DNA from: an uncultured Flavobacteriales bacterium
GTDB lineage: Bacteria > Bacteroidota > Bacteroidia > Flavobacteriales_G > Salibacteraceae
Length of the DNA stretch: 33,391 nt
Direction: 5' to 3'
Assembly (NCBI GenBank): GCA_913062955.1
Contig: CAJXZP010000046.1
Coordinates: forward strand, 1-33,391
Shown: in pieces, positions 11,284 to 32,861 of the stretch
Position numbering within the stretch: the stretch's first letter is position 1
Layout of the letters: each line of letters opens with the position of its first letter
Notes under the pieces: model-generated
What the model was told of the DNA's origin: nothing
Databases searched by the model: none
The model's input: the letters and a program-made list of their open reading frames with translations, nothing else
Position numbers and translations under genes: made by a program

Positions 11284-11481
11284 GGAAGAGCAATTGCTTA
11301 GAATACGACCTAAGAATAAAAAGTCGAAAACTTTGTTAAGGGTGTAAATGTTAGAAGACCTTTTTGTGTAGTGTTAGGCGGACTGAAGCTCGGAATTGCG
11401 TTCCCGAAGGGAAAGGAGCATGGAGAGTGAGAAGGGAGCGGTCGCTTGCGAAACACCTTCCAAAAAGCGCCTTTTCTTTTG

Positions 11482-11516
11482 GTTCGTTTTCTTTGGTGCG
11501 AACAAAGAAAATGAAC
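11482..11516. repeat. Imperfect inverted repeat within the repeat block
   Basis: Arms 11482-11495 (GTTCGTTTTCTTTG) and 11503-11516 (CAAAGAAAATGAAC) pair at 13 of 14 positions around the loop GTGCGAA. There is no T-tract directly after it, so it is not a normal terminator. It resembles folded intergenic repeats seen in Bacteroidota. Confidence 0.75.
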
Positions 11517-11695
11517 AAAGCACAAATAATAATTCATTTTTTTTTTTAGGAAAGGCTACTTTCTATGCAATCGCTGTAGCGAAGGGGGGACTAACGTAGG
11601 AGGGATTAGGGGGATTGACTCTGTTCATTTGAGACGTAAGCTATTTAGTCTTTCCCGCTTAAATGAAACTTACGGCAGTTTTTTAGTAGAGTTAT

Positions 11696-11892: not shown

Positions 11893-12084
11893 TTATGCAA
11901 TTTTTACATTTACTGCATTTAATCCTTTTTTACCTTCTTCAACATCAAAACTTACTTTGTCGCCTTCTCTGATTTCATCAATAAGACCGTTTACATGTAC
12001 AAATACATCTGCACCTCCACCTTCTTGGGTGATAAATCCGAATCCTTTAGAATCGTTGAAAAATTTTACTGTTCCGTTACTCAT
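11893..12084 (-). CDS. Cold-shock domain protein
   Basis: A 63-residue single cold-shock domain (OB fold) that binds single-stranded RNA and DNA and acts as an RNA chaperone. Both RNA-binding motifs are intact: RNP1 as K13-GFGFI and RNP2 as V27-FVHV. The protein starts MSNGTVKFF, as usual for the family, which confirms ATG 12084. It has a clean single-gene unit: a perfect TAnnTTTG box about 24 bases upstream and a strong terminator 28 bases past the stop. The leader appears short (about 17 bases), unlike the long thermosensing leader of E. coli cspA, so cold regulation by that mechanism is not suggested. Confidence 0.96.
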
Positions 12085-21232: not shown

Positions 21233-23641
21233 ATGAAAAAATTTTTCATGGCATGTATACTTGCATGCTCTTTATCTGGTTTTGGACAAGGTAATTTGAA
21301 ATATCAAAAACCCCCAAAAGAGATTCTTGACCTGGTAGATGTTAAACTCTCTCCATCCGTTTTTATGAACGAGCAACAAACACAAATGGTAATGGTTTAT
21401 CGTAGTGTGTATAAATCTATAACGGAATTATCGCAGGAAGAATTACGATTAGGTGGGTTACGAATAGACCCCAAAAGAAATATTGGGAGTCGAGTGACCT
21501 ATTTCAATAATATGGAAGTGAAAACGGTAAAAACAGGTGAGGTAAAAGAAGTGACTGGAATGCCTCAAAAAGCTAAAATATCCAATTTCCAATGGTCACC
21601 AGATCAATCTATGCTGGCTTTTACAAATACCGCAGAGGGTGGGGTTGAACTCTGGGTACTCGATATTTCAAAAGCCGTTGCGAAGAAAATTACAGCCACG
21701 AATCTAAATGCCAATATGGGGCGTCCTTTTCAATGGAATAAGGACGGAAAATCTCTTTTGGTTAAGGTCGTGTCGTCTAAAAAACAATCTTTAATTGATA
21801 CAAAAAATGTCGTGCCCACCGGACCTACTATTTCGGTTAATGAGGGTGAAAAAGCGCAAAACAGAACGTATCAAGATTTATTAAAGAATCCGAATGATGA
21901 GTTTAATTTTGAGCAATTAGCCATGTCGGAAATCATGAAGGTTTCCTTAGATGGCACCTCCTCTCTTTGGATGGAAAGTGCCATGTATAGAAGTATTTCC
22001 TTTTCTCCTGATGGTGAAAATGTGATGGTGAGTACGATTCATCGACCATTTTCCTATTTAGTGACCTATCGAAGTTTTCCAAGTAAACAAACGGTGTACA
22101 CCAAAGATGCTGTCATGATTTCGGTCGTAAATGAAGTTCCTTTAGTGGAAGATTTACCCCAAGGGTTTATGTCCTGTAGAATGGGGAAACGTAGATTAAA
22201 CTGGCGGAATGATCAACCGGCAACTTTAGTTTTTGCTCAAGCCTTAGATGGAGGTGACCCGGCAAAGGAAATGGCTTATAGGGATGAGGTTTTTGAGTGG
22301 AAATCACCATTTACCGAAAATCCAGTTTCAATTATGAAAACGATAAACCGTTTTTCGGGAATCGAATGGGGTACGCCTAATTTGGCCGTTGCGTACGATT
22401 ATTGGTGGAATACACGAAACACGAAAACCTATAGTTTTAATCCCAGTGATATAAAGCAAGAACCAAAAATTTTGTGGGACCGAAATTATCAAGATCGCTA
22501 TAGCGATCCAGGTGATTTTGTAACCCATCGAAATAAGTACGGAAAGCAGGTATTATCTCTTAAAGGAAAGGACCTTTTTTTAATGGGTGATGGATTTACC
22601 AAAGAAGGACAATTTCCATTCATAGATCAAATGAATATTTCTACGGGTAAAACAACTCGATTATATACTTCGAAAATGTCGAATAAAGTGGAAGATTTAC
22701 GTAAGTATGATCCGAAGCAAAATCAGTTATTGGTTCGGATTGAATCAAAAAATGAATACCCAAATTATTATTTTAGAGATGTCAAGGGAGAGGCACTCGT
22801 TCAATTGACCGCTTTTCCAAATCCGTTTAAAAGTATTGAAAATGTGCATAAAGAAGTGATCTCTTATACCCGGGATGATGGCTTAGAATTATCTGGGACT
22901 TTGTATTTACCTATGGGATATGATAAATCTAAAGCAGGGACATATCCAATGATTTTGTGGGCATATCCTACCGAATACAAAGACAAAGCAAGTGCCGGAC
23001 AAAAGACCACCAATCCGAACGAATTTGTATTCCCTTTTTACGGCTCACCGGTGTATTGGGTAACCCGAGGTTATGTGGTTTTGGATGATGCTTCATTTCC
23101 TATTTTAGGCGAAGGCGATGAAGAACCCAATGATTCCTTCCGAAGACAACTGGTTGCCAATGCAAAAGCAGCGATCGATGCCGTAGACGATTTGGGGTAC
23201 ATTGATCGGAACAAAGTGGCCGTGGGTGGACATAGTTATGGGGCGTTTATGGTCGCTAATTTATTGACCCATAGCGATTTGTTTGCCGCAGGGATTGCTC
23301 GGAGCGGTGCGTATAACCGTACCTTAACGCCATTTGGTTTCCAAAGTGAAGAACGAAACTATTGGGAAGCACCCGAAATTTATTATGAAATGTCTCCTTT
23401 TAGTCATGCCGATAAAATGAAAACACCGCTATTATTAATTCATGGGGTAGCCGATAATAATTCAGGGACCTACCCTATGCAAAGTGAGCGTTATTTTAAT
23501 GCATTGAAAGGATTAGGGGCTACCGCTAGACTCGTTATGTTACCCAAGGAAAGTCATGGTTACCGAGCCATCGAAAGTATTTTACATGTTCTTTGGGAAC
23601 AAGATCAATGGATGGAGAAATATGTAAAGAATAAGAAGTGA
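21233..23641 (+). CDS. S9-family serine peptidase, glutamyl-endopeptidase (CGEP) type
   Basis: Exported peptidase of 802 residues: a signal peptide (1-19, ending GFGQ), a long beta-propeller (about 60-560), then an alpha/beta-hydrolase domain. The catalytic triad is S668 in GGHSYGAF, D741 in HGVADNN and H775 in KESHGY, all in the right order and spacing. The N-terminal part (YQKPPKEILDLVD, LGGLRIDPKRN, FQWSPDQSMLAFT) matches the group of prolyl-oligopeptidase relatives that includes the plant chloroplast glutamyl endopeptidase, so it probably cleaves peptides after Glu. It would act in the periplasm on peptides taken up for nutrition. ATG 21233 gives the signal peptide. Single gene, ending in a strong terminator. 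Confidence 0.92.
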   Translation: MKKFFMACILACSLSGFGQGNLKYQKPPKEILDLVDVKLSPSVFMNEQQTQMVMVYRSVYKSITELSQEELRLGGLRIDPKRNIGSRVTYFNNMEVKTVKTGEVKEVTGMPQKAKISNFQWSPDQSMLAFTNTAEGGVELWVLDISKAVAKKITATNLNANMGRPFQWNKDGKSLLVKVVSSKKQSLIDTKNVVPTGPTISVNEGEKAQNRTYQDLLKNPNDEFNFEQLAMSEIMKVSLDGTSSLWMESAMYRSISFSPDGENVMVSTIHRPFSYLVTYRSFPSKQTVYTKDAVMISVVNEVPLVEDLPQGFMSCRMGKRRLNWRNDQPATLVFAQALDGGDPAKEMAYRDEVFEWKSPFTENPVSIMKTINRFSGIEWGTPNLAVAYDYWWNTRNTKTYSFNPSDIKQEPKILWDRNYQDRYSDPGDFVTHRNKYGKQVLSLKGKDLFLMGDGFTKEGQFPFIDQMNISTGKTTRLYTSKMSNKVEDLRKYDPKQNQLLVRIESKNEYPNYYFRDVKGEALVQLTAFPNPFKSIENVHKEVISYTRDDGLELSGTLYLPMGYDKSKAGTYPMILWAYPTEYKDKASAGQKTTNPNEFVFPFYGSPVYWVTRGYVVLDDASFPILGEGDEEPNDSFRRQLVANAKAAIDAVDDLGYIDRNKVAVGGHSYGAFMVANLLTHSDLFAAGIARSGAYNRTLTPFGFQSEERNYWEAPEIYYEMSPFSHADKMKTPLLLIHGVADNNSGTYPMQSERYFNALKGLGATARLVMLPKESHGYRAIESILHVLWEQDQWMEKYVKNKK

Positions 23642-23660
23642 TTCTTTGGGGTTTTAGTGC

Positions 23661-23697
23661 AAAAGGGAGATGACATGCAGTCATCTCCCTTTTTTTA
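23661..23697 (+). terminator. Intrinsic terminator of the S9 peptidase gene
   Basis: Perfect 11-bp stem (AGGGAGATGAC 23664-23674 with GTCATCTCCCT 23680-23690), loop ATGCA, then T7. Confidence 0.95.
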
Positions 23698-24120
23698 TGG
23701 GGTAATGGGGAGACATATAAAAAATGTAAAGATCGAATTTATTGGATGGTTTGCTAGTTACTGCATAGTAAGTCCATCGAAATGCTTTGATTTTGAATGG
23801 TGCATTTTTTCAAGTCTGAAGTACTAGATTCCCCTAATTCACTGCTGATCGAAACTCCAAATTGATGTAAAGTCGCTGCATTGCATGGTTGCTCCTATTG
23901 GTTTGTTATAGGAATGATGTTCCGTTTCTTTCTCAAGTATAAAGTTTCTTCGGGACAAATCTCGTACCGAAACATTACCTCCTTGAAATCGCAAAATGGT
24001 GTAAATACCGTTGGATAATTAGTGGAAATATTTTTGCGTTTTTTTTTGCTTATATCTAATAGATCCGATTTACAATACCCACGTGTAATTCGAGTTTACT
24101 AATTGTTTAATCTTAATATG
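23698..24120. other. Intergenic stretch with coding-like but broken frames
   Basis: About 420 bases without an intact gene. On the minus strand two frames read like protein but are broken. One (24018 to 23839, 59 residues, with ETEHHSYNKPIGATMQ) has no ATG at its head. The other passes through an in-frame TAG (23897-23895) and ends at 23754 (HQFGVSISSELGESS ... MDLLCSN). A plus-strand frame here also looks coding-like, so the impression is weak. It is either a decayed gene or a dispersed element. Confidence 0.35.
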
Positions 24121-29192: not shown

Positions 29193-29193
29193 A

Positions 29194-29289
29194 ATGAATA
29201 AGAAGGAGTTGGAAAAAATATTTTCATCTTATTTAAATAAAAGTAGGTTAGTTTTAAAAACTAAATCTAATTTTGCGGCAACATTATGA
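29194..29289 (+). CDS. Small ORF A (31 codons), coupled to the reductase gene, doubtful
   Basis: ATG 29194 lies one base after the reductase stop and reads MNKKELEKIFSSYLNKSRL... to TGA 29289. Its stop overlaps the next start in the sequence ATGA. The chain of coupled ORFs supports translation, but a run of 31 codons is easily chance. A promoter for the following ORF lies within it. Confidence 0.25.
   Translation: MNKKELEKIFSSYLNKSRLVLKTKSNFAATL
29248..29275 (+). promoter_or_regulatory. TAnnTTTG promoter with 17-bp palindrome
   Basis: TAATTTTG (29268-29275) is a perfect -7 box. The perfect 17-base palindrome TTAGTTTTAAAAACTAA (29248-29264) occupies the -33 region, ending three bases before the -7 box. 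Transcription would begin near 29281, five bases before the ORF at 29286. Confidence 0.6.
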
Positions 29290-29348
29290 AACTAAAGAAT
29301 CAAAATAAGTTTATGCATAGATCGTATTGGAGACAATATCGAGGGTAG
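29286..29348 (+). CDS. Small ORF B, possible leader peptide of 20 residues
   Basis: Reads MKLKNQNKFM and then HRSYWRQYRG, followed by TAG 29348. It starts nearly at the predicted transcript end and is followed by a strong terminator 25 bases after its stop. The C-terminal half carries three Arg codons (AGA, AGA, CGA), one Trp and two Tyr. Position and size fit a leader peptide controlling the terminator behind it. I do not recognise the sequence. Confidence 0.4.
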   Translation: MKLKNQNKFMHRSYWRQYRG

Positions 29349-29373
29349 AAACGTATAAATAAAACTTTTATTA

Positions 29374-29409
29374 AAGGCGTTCTTCTACCAAGTTGAACGC
29401 CTTTTTTTT
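29374..29409 (+). terminator. Intrinsic terminator 1 in the yitT leader
   Basis: Perfect 9-bp stem (AAGGCGTTC 29374-29382 with GAACGCCTT 29395-29403), 12-base loop, then T8. Confidence 0.93.
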
Positions 29410-29430
29410 GAACTATAAATAACAATTAGT

Positions 29431-29547
29431 ATGAATACACATTCCAATAAACAGATGAGTAAACCAATTTCGAATCATTTTATGAGGATGAATATGTGGT
29501 TTAATGAGATGCAATATAGATGTGCGCTAATTTGTCAAAGTGAATAG
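29431..29547 (+). CDS. Small ORF C, methionine-rich, possible leader peptide of 38 residues
   Basis: ATG 29431 to TAG 29547. It has six methionines, four of them in the ten residues FMRMNMWFNE plus the following M. No promoter box lies between terminator 1 and this ORF, so it depends on read-through of terminator 1 or an unseen start. The second terminator begins 21 bases after its stop. Unknown family; it may be a leader peptide or chance. Confidence 0.35.
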   Translation: MNTHSNKQMSKPISNHFMRMNMWFNEMQYRCALICQSE

Positions 29548-29568
29548 TTCAATGAATAATAAAATTGA

Positions 29569-29608
29569 AAAGTCCCTTTGGTTTAAATAATCAAAGGGAC
29601 TTTTTTTT
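29569..29608 (+). terminator. Intrinsic terminator 2, directly before the yitT start codon
   Basis: Perfect 12-bp stem (AAAGTCCCTTTG 29569-29580 with CAAAGGGACTTT 29592-29603), 11-base loop, T8 ending at 29608. Only 12 bases separate it from ATG 29621. Confidence 0.95.
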
Positions 29609-29620
29609 GGAATACAAAAA

Positions 29621-30475
29621 ATGAAGAATTTAACGTTAAAGTATAGTACTCCTCTGAGTTACCTCTCCGCTGTTAGGAGTTATAGTGAGGTGTTGTTGGG
29701 ATCATTAATACTCGCCATTGGTTATGTCGTATTCATTGTGCCTCACCATATTGTTCCGGGTGGTATTTTTGGGTTGAGTATAGTTATTAATGAGTTGGGT
29801 GGTTTGTCAATTGGAATGATCGCCTTGATTATTAATATCCCCCTATTACTTATTGGAAGTAAAATTTTGGGGAGATCTACGGGGTTTAAAACGGCATTTT
29901 CAATGGTTACCGTAAGTGTTTTAGTGGACGGGTTTACGCTTTTTACTTCGGGTAAAATATATGTTTCCGATGTATTGGTTTCTTCCATATTTGGAGGGAT
30001 ATTAATAGGGGTAGCCGTGTTTATTGTGATGAAGGCGGGGGCCACCACGGGTGGAAATGATATTCTAGTACGAATCATTTCTCGGAAGGTAAACTTACCT
30101 TACACTTCTTTGATATTGATTGTGGATGGAATAGTGGTGTTATTAGGGGTGCTGGTTTTTGGTGACTTTACATTGGCTGCCTATTGTGTAATTGCCATTG
30201 TTTCGATCAGTAAAACCATTGAACACTTTTTAAAAAAGAGTAAACAGAATAAGACGCTATTGATTTTTTCTAAAGCAAATGAGGATATTAAAGAAGTTCT
30301 ATGGAATAATCAGGGGATTAAAGAAGGGCTAATTCGCTTTATTCATCAAGATTCTCAAGAGAAAATGGTATTGGTAACTCGTGATAATAACCATGTAAAT
30401 CTAATAGAACAAATGATTTACGAGGTAGATCCGGATGCCCAAATTTCTATTTTGGAATCGCATTACCGATTGTGA
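29621..30475 (+). CDS. YitT-family membrane protein
   Basis: A 284-residue protein with five to six hydrophobic segments (about residues 22-200), then a soluble C-terminal domain (about 215-284, TLLIFSKANEDIKEVLWNN ... ISILESHYRL), the usual DUF161 plus DUF2179 layout. Family motifs visible are GYVVFIVPHHIVPGGIFGLS near helix 1-2 and the glycine-rich MKAGATTGGNDILVRIIS. The biochemical function of the family is not established; transport is assumed. ATG 29621 fits the family's N-terminus. No promoter fits between the preceding terminator and this start, so expression must need read-through of one or two perfect terminators, which suggests regulation by attenuation. Confidence 0.9.
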   Translation: MKNLTLKYSTPLSYLSAVRSYSEVLLGSLILAIGYVVFIVPHHIVPGGIFGLSIVINELGGLSIGMIALIINIPLLLIGSKILGRSTGFKTAFSMVTVSVLVDGFTLFTSGKIYVSDVLVSSIFGGILIGVAVFIVMKAGATTGGNDILVRIISRKVNLPYTSLILIVDGIVVLLGVLVFGDFTLAAYCVIAIVSISKTIEHFLKKSKQNKTLLIFSKANEDIKEVLWNNQGIKEGLIRFIHQDSQEKMVLVTRDNNHVNLIEQMIYEVDPDAQISILESHYRL

Positions 30476-30526: not shown

Positions 30527-30534
30527 TACCTTTG
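30527..30534 (+). promoter_or_regulatory. TAnnTTTG promoter for the small export protein
   Basis: TACCTTTG is a perfect -7 box with no well-spaced TTG. It overlaps the TTG codon at 30532 that opens the reading frame, which argues for ATG 30568 as the start. Confidence 0.45.
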
Positions 30535-30567
30535 GGTCATTTTTGGTTCCGATTAACTATTTGGTGT

Positions 30568-31023
30568 ATGCTTATTGATTTAATTACCGTTTTCATAATT
30601 AGTATTTCTCCCTTTGGAGAAGCAAGAGTAGGCATCCCTTATGGGGTAATGAATGGGGTTCCTGTTTTATGGAGTTTCATGATAGGTTGGATAGCCAACC
30701 TGTTGATTTTCCCATTGTTTTATAAGGGTATTACTCTTATGAATCAAACTTTTTGGAAATACCGGAGCTATAAAAAGAGCGCAATTTTTTTGTCAAAAAG
30801 AGCCAAGAGTAAAACCCAATCAAGCATTGAAAAATATGGCGCGTGGGGATTAATGGTTTTTGTGATGATTCCCCTTCCAATTACCGGTGCCTATATTGGT
30901 ACCATAGCGGCTTATATTTTGAAAATGAATAGTAAAACCGCTCTTGTAGCTGTGACCATAGGTGTCACTATCTCTAGTTTATTGGTGGGTTCAGCCCTGT
31001 ATTTTGGTTTTTCTACCAACTAG
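30568..31023 (+). CDS. Putative small multidrug export family membrane protein
   Basis: A 151-residue inner-membrane protein with four hydrophobic segments. It carries the family's signature N-terminus (ISPFGEARVGIPYGVMNGVP) and, before the third helix, KYGAWGLMVFVMIPLPITGA. The label comes from the Pfam group Sm_multidrug_ex; drug export has not been shown for most members, so the substrate is unknown. The frame opens at TTG 30532 but that codon lies within the promoter box, so MLIDLITVF at 30568 is chosen. It is the second membrane gene after yitT; whether they are co-transcribed is unclear. Confidence 0.8.
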   Translation: MLIDLITVFIISISPFGEARVGIPYGVMNGVPVLWSFMIGWIANLLIFPLFYKGITLMNQTFWKYRSYKKSAIFLSKRAKSKTQSSIEKYGAWGLMVFVMIPLPITGAYIGTIAAYILKMNSKTALVAVTIGVTISSLLVGSALYFGFSTN

Positions 31024-31149: not shown

Positions 31150-31169
31150 CTTCGTAAAATTATTTGAAT

Positions 31170-32021
31170 ATGATACGAACTATTAATACCATCACCGGAC
31201 ATTCCAGAATTGATGGAGTTGTACCGGGCGTACGTGGTCAACGTGCGTTCCCCAATAGAGAATTAAGAACTTTAGATCCTTTTGTGATGTTAGACCATAT
31301 TGGTCCGCAACATTTGGGTACGGAATATTATGTAGATGGAAGTAATTCTTCTCATCCGCATCGTGGTTTTGAAACCCTTACCTTTATGTTTGATGGGCAA
31401 ATGAAACATGTGGATTCACTTGGGAATAAAGCGGAATTGAAAACGGGAGATGTTCAACGCATGAATGCTGGGCGAGGTATTCAGCATGGGGGTGACTTTT
31501 TGAGTGACCCTTCTACCGGAAATTTTCATGAAGTGCAGCTTTGGGTAAATGCACCCGCTAACGAAAAAATGAGCGAACCTAATATTCACAATGTCAAAAG
31601 CCATGAATTTCCAATGGTTACCCAACAAAATCAATCTATTCGTGTCATTTGTGGTAAGTTACTAGGGGTGCAAGGTCCTATGGAAACTTTGGCTACTACT
31701 CAAATCGCACATGTCATTAGTGAAGCCAAAGGGAAGGTGAAAATTACCGGCTTAACCAACTCTAATAATGTAGGTGCCTATGTTTTAAAGGGAAGTTACA
31801 GTATGGATGGAACGCAATTTTCCCAAGGAGAAATGGTGGTATTTAATAAAGATGGTGACGAATTGGAATTGAAAGCAGCGTATGCAGGAGAATTGTTAGT
31901 GATTTCTGGAAAACCGTTAAACCAACCAGTCGTTATGGGAGGGCCTTTTGTGATGAATACCCAAGATGAAATTGAGCAAGCGTATCAAGATTTTGACAAG
32001 GGGTTATTTGGGACCATTTAA
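31170..32021 (+). CDS. Pirin-family protein 1, one metal ligand replaced
   Basis: A 283-residue bicupin of the pirin family; characterised members are iron-dependent quercetin dioxygenases or redox-sensitive regulators. N-terminal domain motifs: DPFVMLDHIGPQ, then SHPHRGFETLTFMFDG with H62 and H64, and RMNAGRGIQHGGDF with H106. In human pirin the ligands are H56, H58, H101 and E103; here the position of the glutamate is a glycine (HGG), so metal binding or catalysis may differ. The C-terminal cupin (about 165-283) lacks ligands, as usual. The frame opens at a TTG (31164); ATG 31170 is preferred. It leads a probable two-gene transcript, 15 bases before the second pirin. Confidence 0.9.
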   Translation: MIRTINTITGHSRIDGVVPGVRGQRAFPNRELRTLDPFVMLDHIGPQHLGTEYYVDGSNSSHPHRGFETLTFMFDGQMKHVDSLGNKAELKTGDVQRMNAGRGIQHGGDFLSDPSTGNFHEVQLWVNAPANEKMSEPNIHNVKSHEFPMVTQQNQSIRVICGKLLGVQGPMETLATTQIAHVISEAKGKVKITGLTNSNNVGAYVLKGSYSMDGTQFSQGEMVVFNKDGDELELKAAYAGELLVISGKPLNQPVVMGGPFVMNTQDEIEQAYQDFDKGLFGTI

Positions 32022-32024
32022 TAA

Positions 32025-32030
32025 GGGAGG
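32025..32030 (+). promoter_or_regulatory. Strong Shine-Dalgarno before a TTG start
   Basis: GGGAGG stands six bases before TTG 32037. Such sites are rare in this window and here help to decide an unusual start codon. Confidence 0.6.
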
Positions 32031-32036
32031 AACAAA

Positions 32037-32861
32037 TTGAAAAGAGAGGTAAAGAGAATTCAAGAGCCCCGAAATGGGATTCAGTTTGTGTTATATCCAG
32101 AAACAAGAGAAGAGTTAAAACCATTAGTATTTTTTGATGGTGGGAAGTTTAAAAGAAATGATGAGGGTTTTACTATTGGTTTTCATCCGCATTCGGGGAT
32201 TGGAATAATTACTTATTTCCATCATACTGATTTGCATCATAAGGATAGTTCAAATAACCCGGGAGTGGTGTATGATGGTGGTGCTCAGTGGATTCAGGCC
32301 GGTAAAGGGGTTTGGCATGAGGAGGGGTACCATCGAAAATATAATGCCACCGATTTGGGAGAATGGGAAGGTTCTATTCATCAATTGTGGATTCAATTAC
32401 CACCCGATTTTGAGGAAGGAGAGGTTAAGTATAGAAATTTGAATCCAGAGGAATTGCCTTGGGTCGAAAATGTAAAAGTGCTTTCCGGAGAGTATCTGGG
32501 AGTGAAAGGGCCTATGAATGTGCCCATTAAGTTGACCTACCTAGATGTGTATCTAAATGAAGGGGAAACTTGGAGCTTTGACACACCCAAAGGACAAACT
32601 ACAGGATTTGTATTTACCCGTGATGGGGAACTTACTATTGGAAATACGATCATTCCAAATTCCAAATTAGCCATTTTGGAGCATAATGAAGGCTTGATTA
32701 CCGCAAATGCAGTGGGTAAAGAGTCTAATTTTATTGTGGTTTTAGCCCAGCCAAGTCAGGAGGATGTCGTGGCGCAAAATGGTCAAATCCACACCAATAG
32801 GGCCTCCTTACAGCGTAGTGCGGAACATATAAAAAGCATTGGGAAAAATATTAATCAATAA
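32037..32861 (+). CDS. Pirin-family protein 2, complete metal site, TTG start
   Basis: A 274-residue bicupin related to pirin 1 but clearly divergent. All four expected metal ligands are present: H50 and H52 in GFHPHSGIGIITYF, H94 and E96 in GKGVWHEEGYH. It is thus the likelier active dioxygenase of the pair. The C-terminal half (VLSGEYLGVKGPMNVPIKL ... LAILEHNEG) is the usual second cupin. Translation must begin at TTG 32037: a strong Shine-Dalgarno lies six bases upstream, the protein starts with family-like sequence (KREVKRIQEPRNGIQFVLYP), and no ATG occurs for over 100 codons. Directly behind pirin 1 with a 15-base gap, so co-transcribed. Confidence 0.88.
   Translation: MKREVKRIQEPRNGIQFVLYPETREELKPLVFFDGGKFKRNDEGFTIGFHPHSGIGIITYFHHTDLHHKDSSNNPGVVYDGGAQWIQAGKGVWHEEGYHRKYNATDLGEWEGSIHQLWIQLPPDFEEGEVKYRNLNPEELPWVENVKVLSGEYLGVKGPMNVPIKLTYLDVYLNEGETWSFDTPKGQTTGFVFTRDGELTIGNTIIPNSKLAILEHNEGLITANAVGKESNFIVVLAQPSQEDVVAQNGQIHTNRASLQRSAEHIKSIGKNINQ

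Follow-up and report, generated by a model that had tools for sequence, protein, structure and literature searches.

The yitT gene of the 33,391-nucleotide window (the whole stretch of DNA analysed here) is preceded by what is probably a tandem ribosome-mediated transcription attenuator, in which the trp-type plan would be used twice in series. The region 29268-29621 contains, all in one direction, a promoter-like site, a short open reading frame (ORF1), an intrinsic terminator, a second short open reading frame (ORF2), a second intrinsic terminator and then yitT. The first-pass annotation had listed these parts, all of which we found at or within one base of the positions that it gave, and had read them as leader-peptide attenuation done twice; this reading is supported by predicted antiterminators located at both ORF stop codons in three species. 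Both the arrangement and its predicted alternative pairings are shown by sequence comparison to be conserved.

Organization and conservation of the yitT leader

The Bacteroidota-type -7 promoter element TAATTTTG (TAnnTTTG) is located at 29268-29275 on the plus strand, the strand of all leader features and downstream genes given below, and from its position transcription is expected to start at approximately 29280-29282. ORF1 (29286-29348), whose start codon lies ~5 nt from this inferred start, encodes a putative leader peptide of 20 codons, MKLKNQNKFMHRSYWRQYRG, and ORF2 (29431-29547) a putative leader peptide of 38 codons, MNTHSNKQMSKPISNHFMRMNMWFNEMQYRCALICQSE, that is rich in Met, Trp, Cys and His; each is closed by a stop codon. 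Terminator 1 (29373-29409) is a perfect stem with the arms AAAGGCGTTC and GAACGCCTTT and a loop of 12, forming a hairpin at 29373-29401 that is followed by T8 at 29402-29409. Terminator 2 (29570-29608), also a perfect stem, has the arms AAGTCCCTTTGGTT and AATCAAAGGGACTT, a hairpin at 29570-29602 and T8 at 29601-29608, and its last T stands 12 bases from the start of yitT at 29621. The putative controlled gene, yitT (29621-30475), encodes a membrane protein assigned to the YitT family (PF02588) by family match. Both leader terminators were missed by a standard scan, which was restricted to loops of 3-8, as their loops are longer; a longer-loop scan detected four strong perfect terminators in the whole 33 kb window, two of which are those of the leader.

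Alignment of the regions upstream of yitT orthologues, a check that the first-pass annotation had proposed, was carried out with G001 and G002, which belong to the same genus as the source genome of the window (G000); the G002 contig is the same as CAJXPI010000204, from an uncultured Flavobacteriales MAG. The YitT orthologues are 83% (G002) and 69% (G001) identical to the protein of the gene at 29621 and both are encoded behind the same leader, in which one TAnnTTTG is followed by a 20-codon ORF1, terminator 1, an ORF2 of 36-38 codons (counted in G001 from the second ATG, which aligns with the starts in the other two species), terminator 2 and yitT. G001 and G002 retain the start and stop of each ORF, the two terminators and the one promoter-like site, and the short ORFs between promoter and terminators are conserved in place and frame in the three species. 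The Crp-like and flavodoxin-like genes that precede the leader do so in G001 and G002 too, and the gene 3' of yitT differs among all three species, indicating that yitT is the constant target of the leader. This yitT was absent from all 39 other genomes of the order examined.

Four-fold degenerate sites of two neighbouring genes are 62-72% different between the species and thus near-saturated. That the leader has been kept despite such synonymous divergence next door argues, at the level of sequence, that it is maintained by selection rather than chance, and it is this conservation, not statistics from one genome, that provides the evidence above chance. The stems were also inspected for covariation, for which three genomes give low power, most base pairs being invariant. 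Compensatory changes occur in terminator 1 (one, A-U to G-C among the three species), in terminator 2 (A-U in G001 and G002 where G-C stands here) and in the inner stem of the antiterminator of unit 2 described below. Two intrinsic terminators with T-tracts and compensatory changes are therefore present 5' of the structural gene. Covariance models of units 1 and 2 gave strong matches only 5' of yitT in this genus. Their other matches were scattered, with scores of up to 31.6 bits (unit 1) and 42.2 bits (unit 2); nine of these (six R1, three R2) were aligned in detail and matched mainly over a terminator.

Each of the three species has a single intergenic TAnnTTTG, at the homologous place 5' of ORF1, and none contains this motif between ORF1 and yitT, whether 5' of ORF2 or of yitT. 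ORF2 and yitT should thus be reached by read-through only, in agreement with the dependence of yitT on read-through suggested earlier, and the two units would lie on one transcript. An improbable alternative is that the hairpins are two ordinary terminators, the first serving the upstream Crp and flavodoxin genes and the second fortuitous or protective, with ORFs that arose by chance and a yitT promoter of unrecognised form. Consistent with this alternative, the longer-loop scan found no other strong terminator from the flavodoxin stop (29192) to 29373. In addition, a perfect 13-bp terminator at 23660-23700, 3' of a peptidase-like gene ending at 23641, has a 5' arm that can likewise pair with RNA upstream, so that such pairing is by itself no evidence of attenuation. 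However, the flavodoxin gene is separated from terminator 1 by a promoter-like site and ORF1 in each of the three species, terminator 2 stops about 12 bases short of yitT, no TAnnTTTG follows ORF1, and both antiterminators and the ORF frames have been conserved at saturation.

Downstream of yitT in the window is a gene with a family match to Sm_multidrug_ex (30532-31023), which is not directly 3' of yitT in G001 or G002 and is possibly co-transcribed with yitT in this species only. Two tandem pirin-like genes and then a YceI-like gene follow at 31164-32861; in G002 the YceI-like gene is directly 3' of yitT and the pirin pair is absent there. G000 (L025, on contig C23) and G001 (L026) each carry a further YitT gene with about 30% identity. 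No comparable leader is visible upstream of L025, and an 11-base match, ATATCGAGGGT, located ~300 bases 5' of it is probably due to chance and is missing upstream of the G001 paralogue. Elsewhere in the window, the intergenic stretch 11360-11600, which adjoins a cold-shock protein gene (11893-12084, minus strand), has overlapping open frames on both strands and a motif resembling TTCTTTTGGTTCGTTTTCTTTGG, and is possibly a dispersed repeat.

Predicted alternative folds of the two leader units

In unit 1 the predicted antiterminator pairs a 5' strand, GGUAGAAACG (29344-29353), which contains the ORF1 stop codon, with a 3' strand, CGU..UUCUACC (29378-29389), that overlaps the 5' arm and loop of terminator 1. 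The ten pairs of this helix, GGUAGARACG : CGU..UUCUACC, are formed in 29 of 30 cells (96.7%) over the three species, the sole broken pair being in G002. For RNA that lies 3' of a lagging ribosome and still lacks the 3' arm of terminator 1, antiterminator 1 is predicted in all three species; once the ribosome is placed at the ORF1 stop, antiterminator 1 is gone and terminator 1 alone remains. A simulated ribosome scan places the switch point at codon 16/17 in each species, directly after the invariant Trp15. Without a ribosome, unit 1 of G002 as a whole favours a different fold.

The sequence ACAATATCGAGGGTAGA-R-ACGTATA, which spans the end of ORF1 and the bases just beyond it, is nearly invariant and includes a 17-nt invariant block. 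Within the end of ORF1, a hairpin with a GNRA loop (UCG-AUUG / CAAU-CGA, strands 1:2; 29322-29342) forms seven pairs in all three species. Its end stands ten bases from a C followed by G, which is the spacing of hairpin-stabilised polymerase pauses, making it a possible RNA-polymerase pause hairpin. ORF1 contains no indel and no synonymous change among the three species, which points to constraint on the RNA, accounted for by this hairpin and the antiterminator 1 helix; its codon statistics give no sign of translation, and an open frame of this kind is not improbable by chance (P about 0.2-0.3). Of the two ORFs, which the first-pass annotation had suggested testing for codon-level conservation, ORF2 keeps its frame through indels and ORF1 is constrained as RNA.

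A 17-nt invariant block without synonymous change would also fit an aptamer, and the leader could in principle be a pair of tandem riboswitches, in which the unit 1 hairpin and the GGGUAGARACG block would bind a metabolite and the ORFs would be incidental. We consider this very unlikely, as units 1 and 2 share no common aptamer, unit 2 is conserved as an ORF and not as a fold, and an Rfam search of the whole window returned no family at gathering score. The best sub-threshold Rfam match, to the L10 leader (29.9 bits versus 44, E 0.0044), was attributed to shared terminator shape.

Unit 2, which under the attenuation reading would be the second gate, differs in that its ORF has diverged strongly. 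ORF2 is open in all three genomes (shuffling P about 0.03-0.04 each), its frame is maintained through indels, and its stop, TAG in two of the species and TGA in the other, occupies the same alignment column. At the end of this fast-changing ORF, the hexamer UCAAAG is invariant, inside UCAAAGnGA, which closely resembles the 3' arm of terminator 2, UCAAAGGGA. The 5' side of the predicted antiterminator 2 (29535-29553) is composed of UCAAAGUGA, which mimics the 3' arm of terminator 2 and extends up to the ORF2 stop, and UUCAAU; its 3' side (29564-29581) is composed of AUUGAA and UCCCUUUGG, the 5' arm of terminator 2. The inner stem UUCAAU:AUUGAA is replaced by the compensatory UUCAAG:CUUGAA in G002 (U-A to G-C). 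With the upstream RNA treated as ribosome-covered, antiterminator 2 is predicted in each species as long as the 3' arm of terminator 2 has yet to be made; a ribosome at the ORF2 stop abolishes it and leaves terminator 2 alone. The switch point in the simulated scan falls at codons 29-32, about 6-8 codons 5' of the stop. Near the ORF2 start, the nine bases AATAAACAG (29446-29454; Asn-Lys-Gln) are invariant in all three species and have no obvious pairing partner.

Hence, in both units and all three species, the conserved 5' strand of the antiterminator either contains the ORF stop codon or borders on it, and in the computation the antiterminator excludes the terminator and has its 5' strand masked by the finishing ribosome. 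The simulated scan behaves as a sharp switch: the antiterminator persists with a ribosome stalled upstream and disappears once the ribosome is at the stop. The duplex energies of the antiterminators have a modest edge over shuffled sequences, with about 1-7% of shuffles equally good per genome. Compared with the antiterminators, the terminators have the greater stability in the full-length RNA, so that switching would have to be kinetic.

Termination at either site would release a hairpin-ended RNA, and the leader might instead produce two terminator-ended, trans-acting small RNAs (about 130 and 330 nt), with yitT made by read-through. The conservation of the second half of ORF1 at the RNA level, with no synonymous change, is compatible with this. 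As an account of the whole leader it is highly improbable, since it leaves unexplained both the conservation of the ORF2 frame with a changed stop codon and the placement of antiterminator strands at the stop codons; small RNAs are nonetheless compatible with attenuation, and the two can coexist.

The tandem attenuator that we favour would operate as follows, with translation of the ORFs, stalling, antitermination and multiplication in series being steps that we infer. The one promoter at 29268 would make the leader RNA, and a ribosome would normally reach the ORF1 stop and cover GGUAGAAACG, allowing terminator 1 to form. If it lagged or stalled no further on than about codon 16 (His11 to Trp15-Arg16), GGUAGAAACG would pair first with CGU..UUCUACC and the polymerase would read on. 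At the second gate, a ribosome at the ORF2 stop would cover UCAAAGUGA and terminator 2 would form, and a stall at or before about ORF2 codon 31 would let UCAAAGUGA and UUCAAU pair with AUUGAA and UCCCUUUGG, such that the polymerase would enter yitT. Terminator 1 and then terminator 2 would both have to fail for yitT to be made. With the gates in series, yitT output would be the product of two read-through probabilities, giving low leakage and a steep response.

Leader composition and the candidate signal

With the proteins of the window as the composition baseline, the codons 5' of both switch points, pooled over the species, are enriched for Cys (5.1-fold), Met (4.9), His (4.5) and Trp (3.4); Asp and Gly do not occur among them, and Val, Glu and Ala hardly do. 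The Cys/Met/His/Trp excess is specific to the reading frame and no single amino acid stands out. For ORF2, the excess of Met, Trp, Cys and His corresponds to a P of about 1e-4 per genome, a value that is overstated because these four amino acids were picked once the peptides were known.

No matches to hisG, trpA, metE or ilvC were detected in the genus (G000, G001 and G002), and a metH-type (homocysteine) methyltransferase domain was found in G001 only. Judging from these missing matches, the cells are probably auxotrophs that need His, Trp and branched-chain amino acids, and two of the species also Met. The proposal of an exact correspondence between the amino acids reported by the leaders and those that the cells cannot make is weakened, as ilvC is absent while Ile, Leu and Val codons are avoided. 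Neither gene sought as a positive-control leader gene of the genus yielded a control leader: hisG was absent and the trpE matches were short and partial.

The most likely signal would be slow decoding of the scarce amino acids Cys, Met, His and Trp, part of which this genus seems unable to make, or else slower translation overall; the leader could register either a shortage of amino acids taken up from outside or simply any slowdown of translation. A more specific proposal, which we regard as tentative and on balance doubtful, is a two-gate, AND-type attenuator in which both peptides are composed of the scarcest amino acids and contain hardly any of the abundant ones, so that an auxotroph would sense general scarcity, respond with approximately the square of the stalling probability and induce YitT, perhaps an importer.

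Relation to known attenuators and significance for YitT

The proposed mechanism would work by analogy with classical leader-peptide attenuation. Like the enterobacterial trp/his/thr-type leaders, the yitT leader has a short ORF, a predicted antiterminator that includes the ORF end, an intrinsic terminator and a possible pause hairpin. Unlike them, it is doubled, lacks a run of one control codon and precedes a gene that is not a biosynthetic operon, the matching pathways appearing absent. In the same phylum, leader-peptide attenuation has been inferred in Flavobacterium psychrophilum from structured 5' regions of amino-acid biosynthesis operons (PMC9723704). These attenuators precede biosynthesis operons, however, and the main text of that study makes no mention of yitT (PMC9723704).

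The first-pass annotation cited no described element of this form for YitT. Tandem leader-ORF attenuators do have a precedent in Salmonella mgtCBR, whose leader ORFs, mgtM and mgtP, were called a singular example by its authors (PMC3641672). As proposed for the yitT leader, two short serial ORFs each control alternative folds and entry into a transporter or membrane gene. The mgtCBR ORFs sense different signals, ATP and proline, and act additively, and the stem-loops are unlike intrinsic terminators, with Rho suggested to be involved (PMC3641672). By contrast, each ORF of the yitT leader has a strong intrinsic terminator and the two ORFs are similar in composition. Antibiotic-responsive leader attenuators such as bmrB-bmrCD of Bacillus and mef/mel of pneumococcus resemble the proposed yitT attenuator in that a terminator 5' of a membrane transporter gene is opened when the ribosome slows on a leader ORF, but are single attenuators. 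There was no sign here that yitT encodes a drug transporter.

Our literature search found no assigned function for YitT (PF02588) proteins and no described leader for yitT; YitT is mentioned in connection with macrolide-selected Mycoplasma mutants, iron and gliotoxin, without a consistent function. YitT proteins are widespread, and a leader that reports translation would be the first physiological handle on when one is needed. The composition of this leader suggests a sensor of multi-amino-acid scarcity rather than single-pathway feedback. If the proposed mechanism holds, two serial intrinsic-terminator attenuators would constitute a natural design for a low-leak, steep switch, unlike the additive control of mgtCBR.
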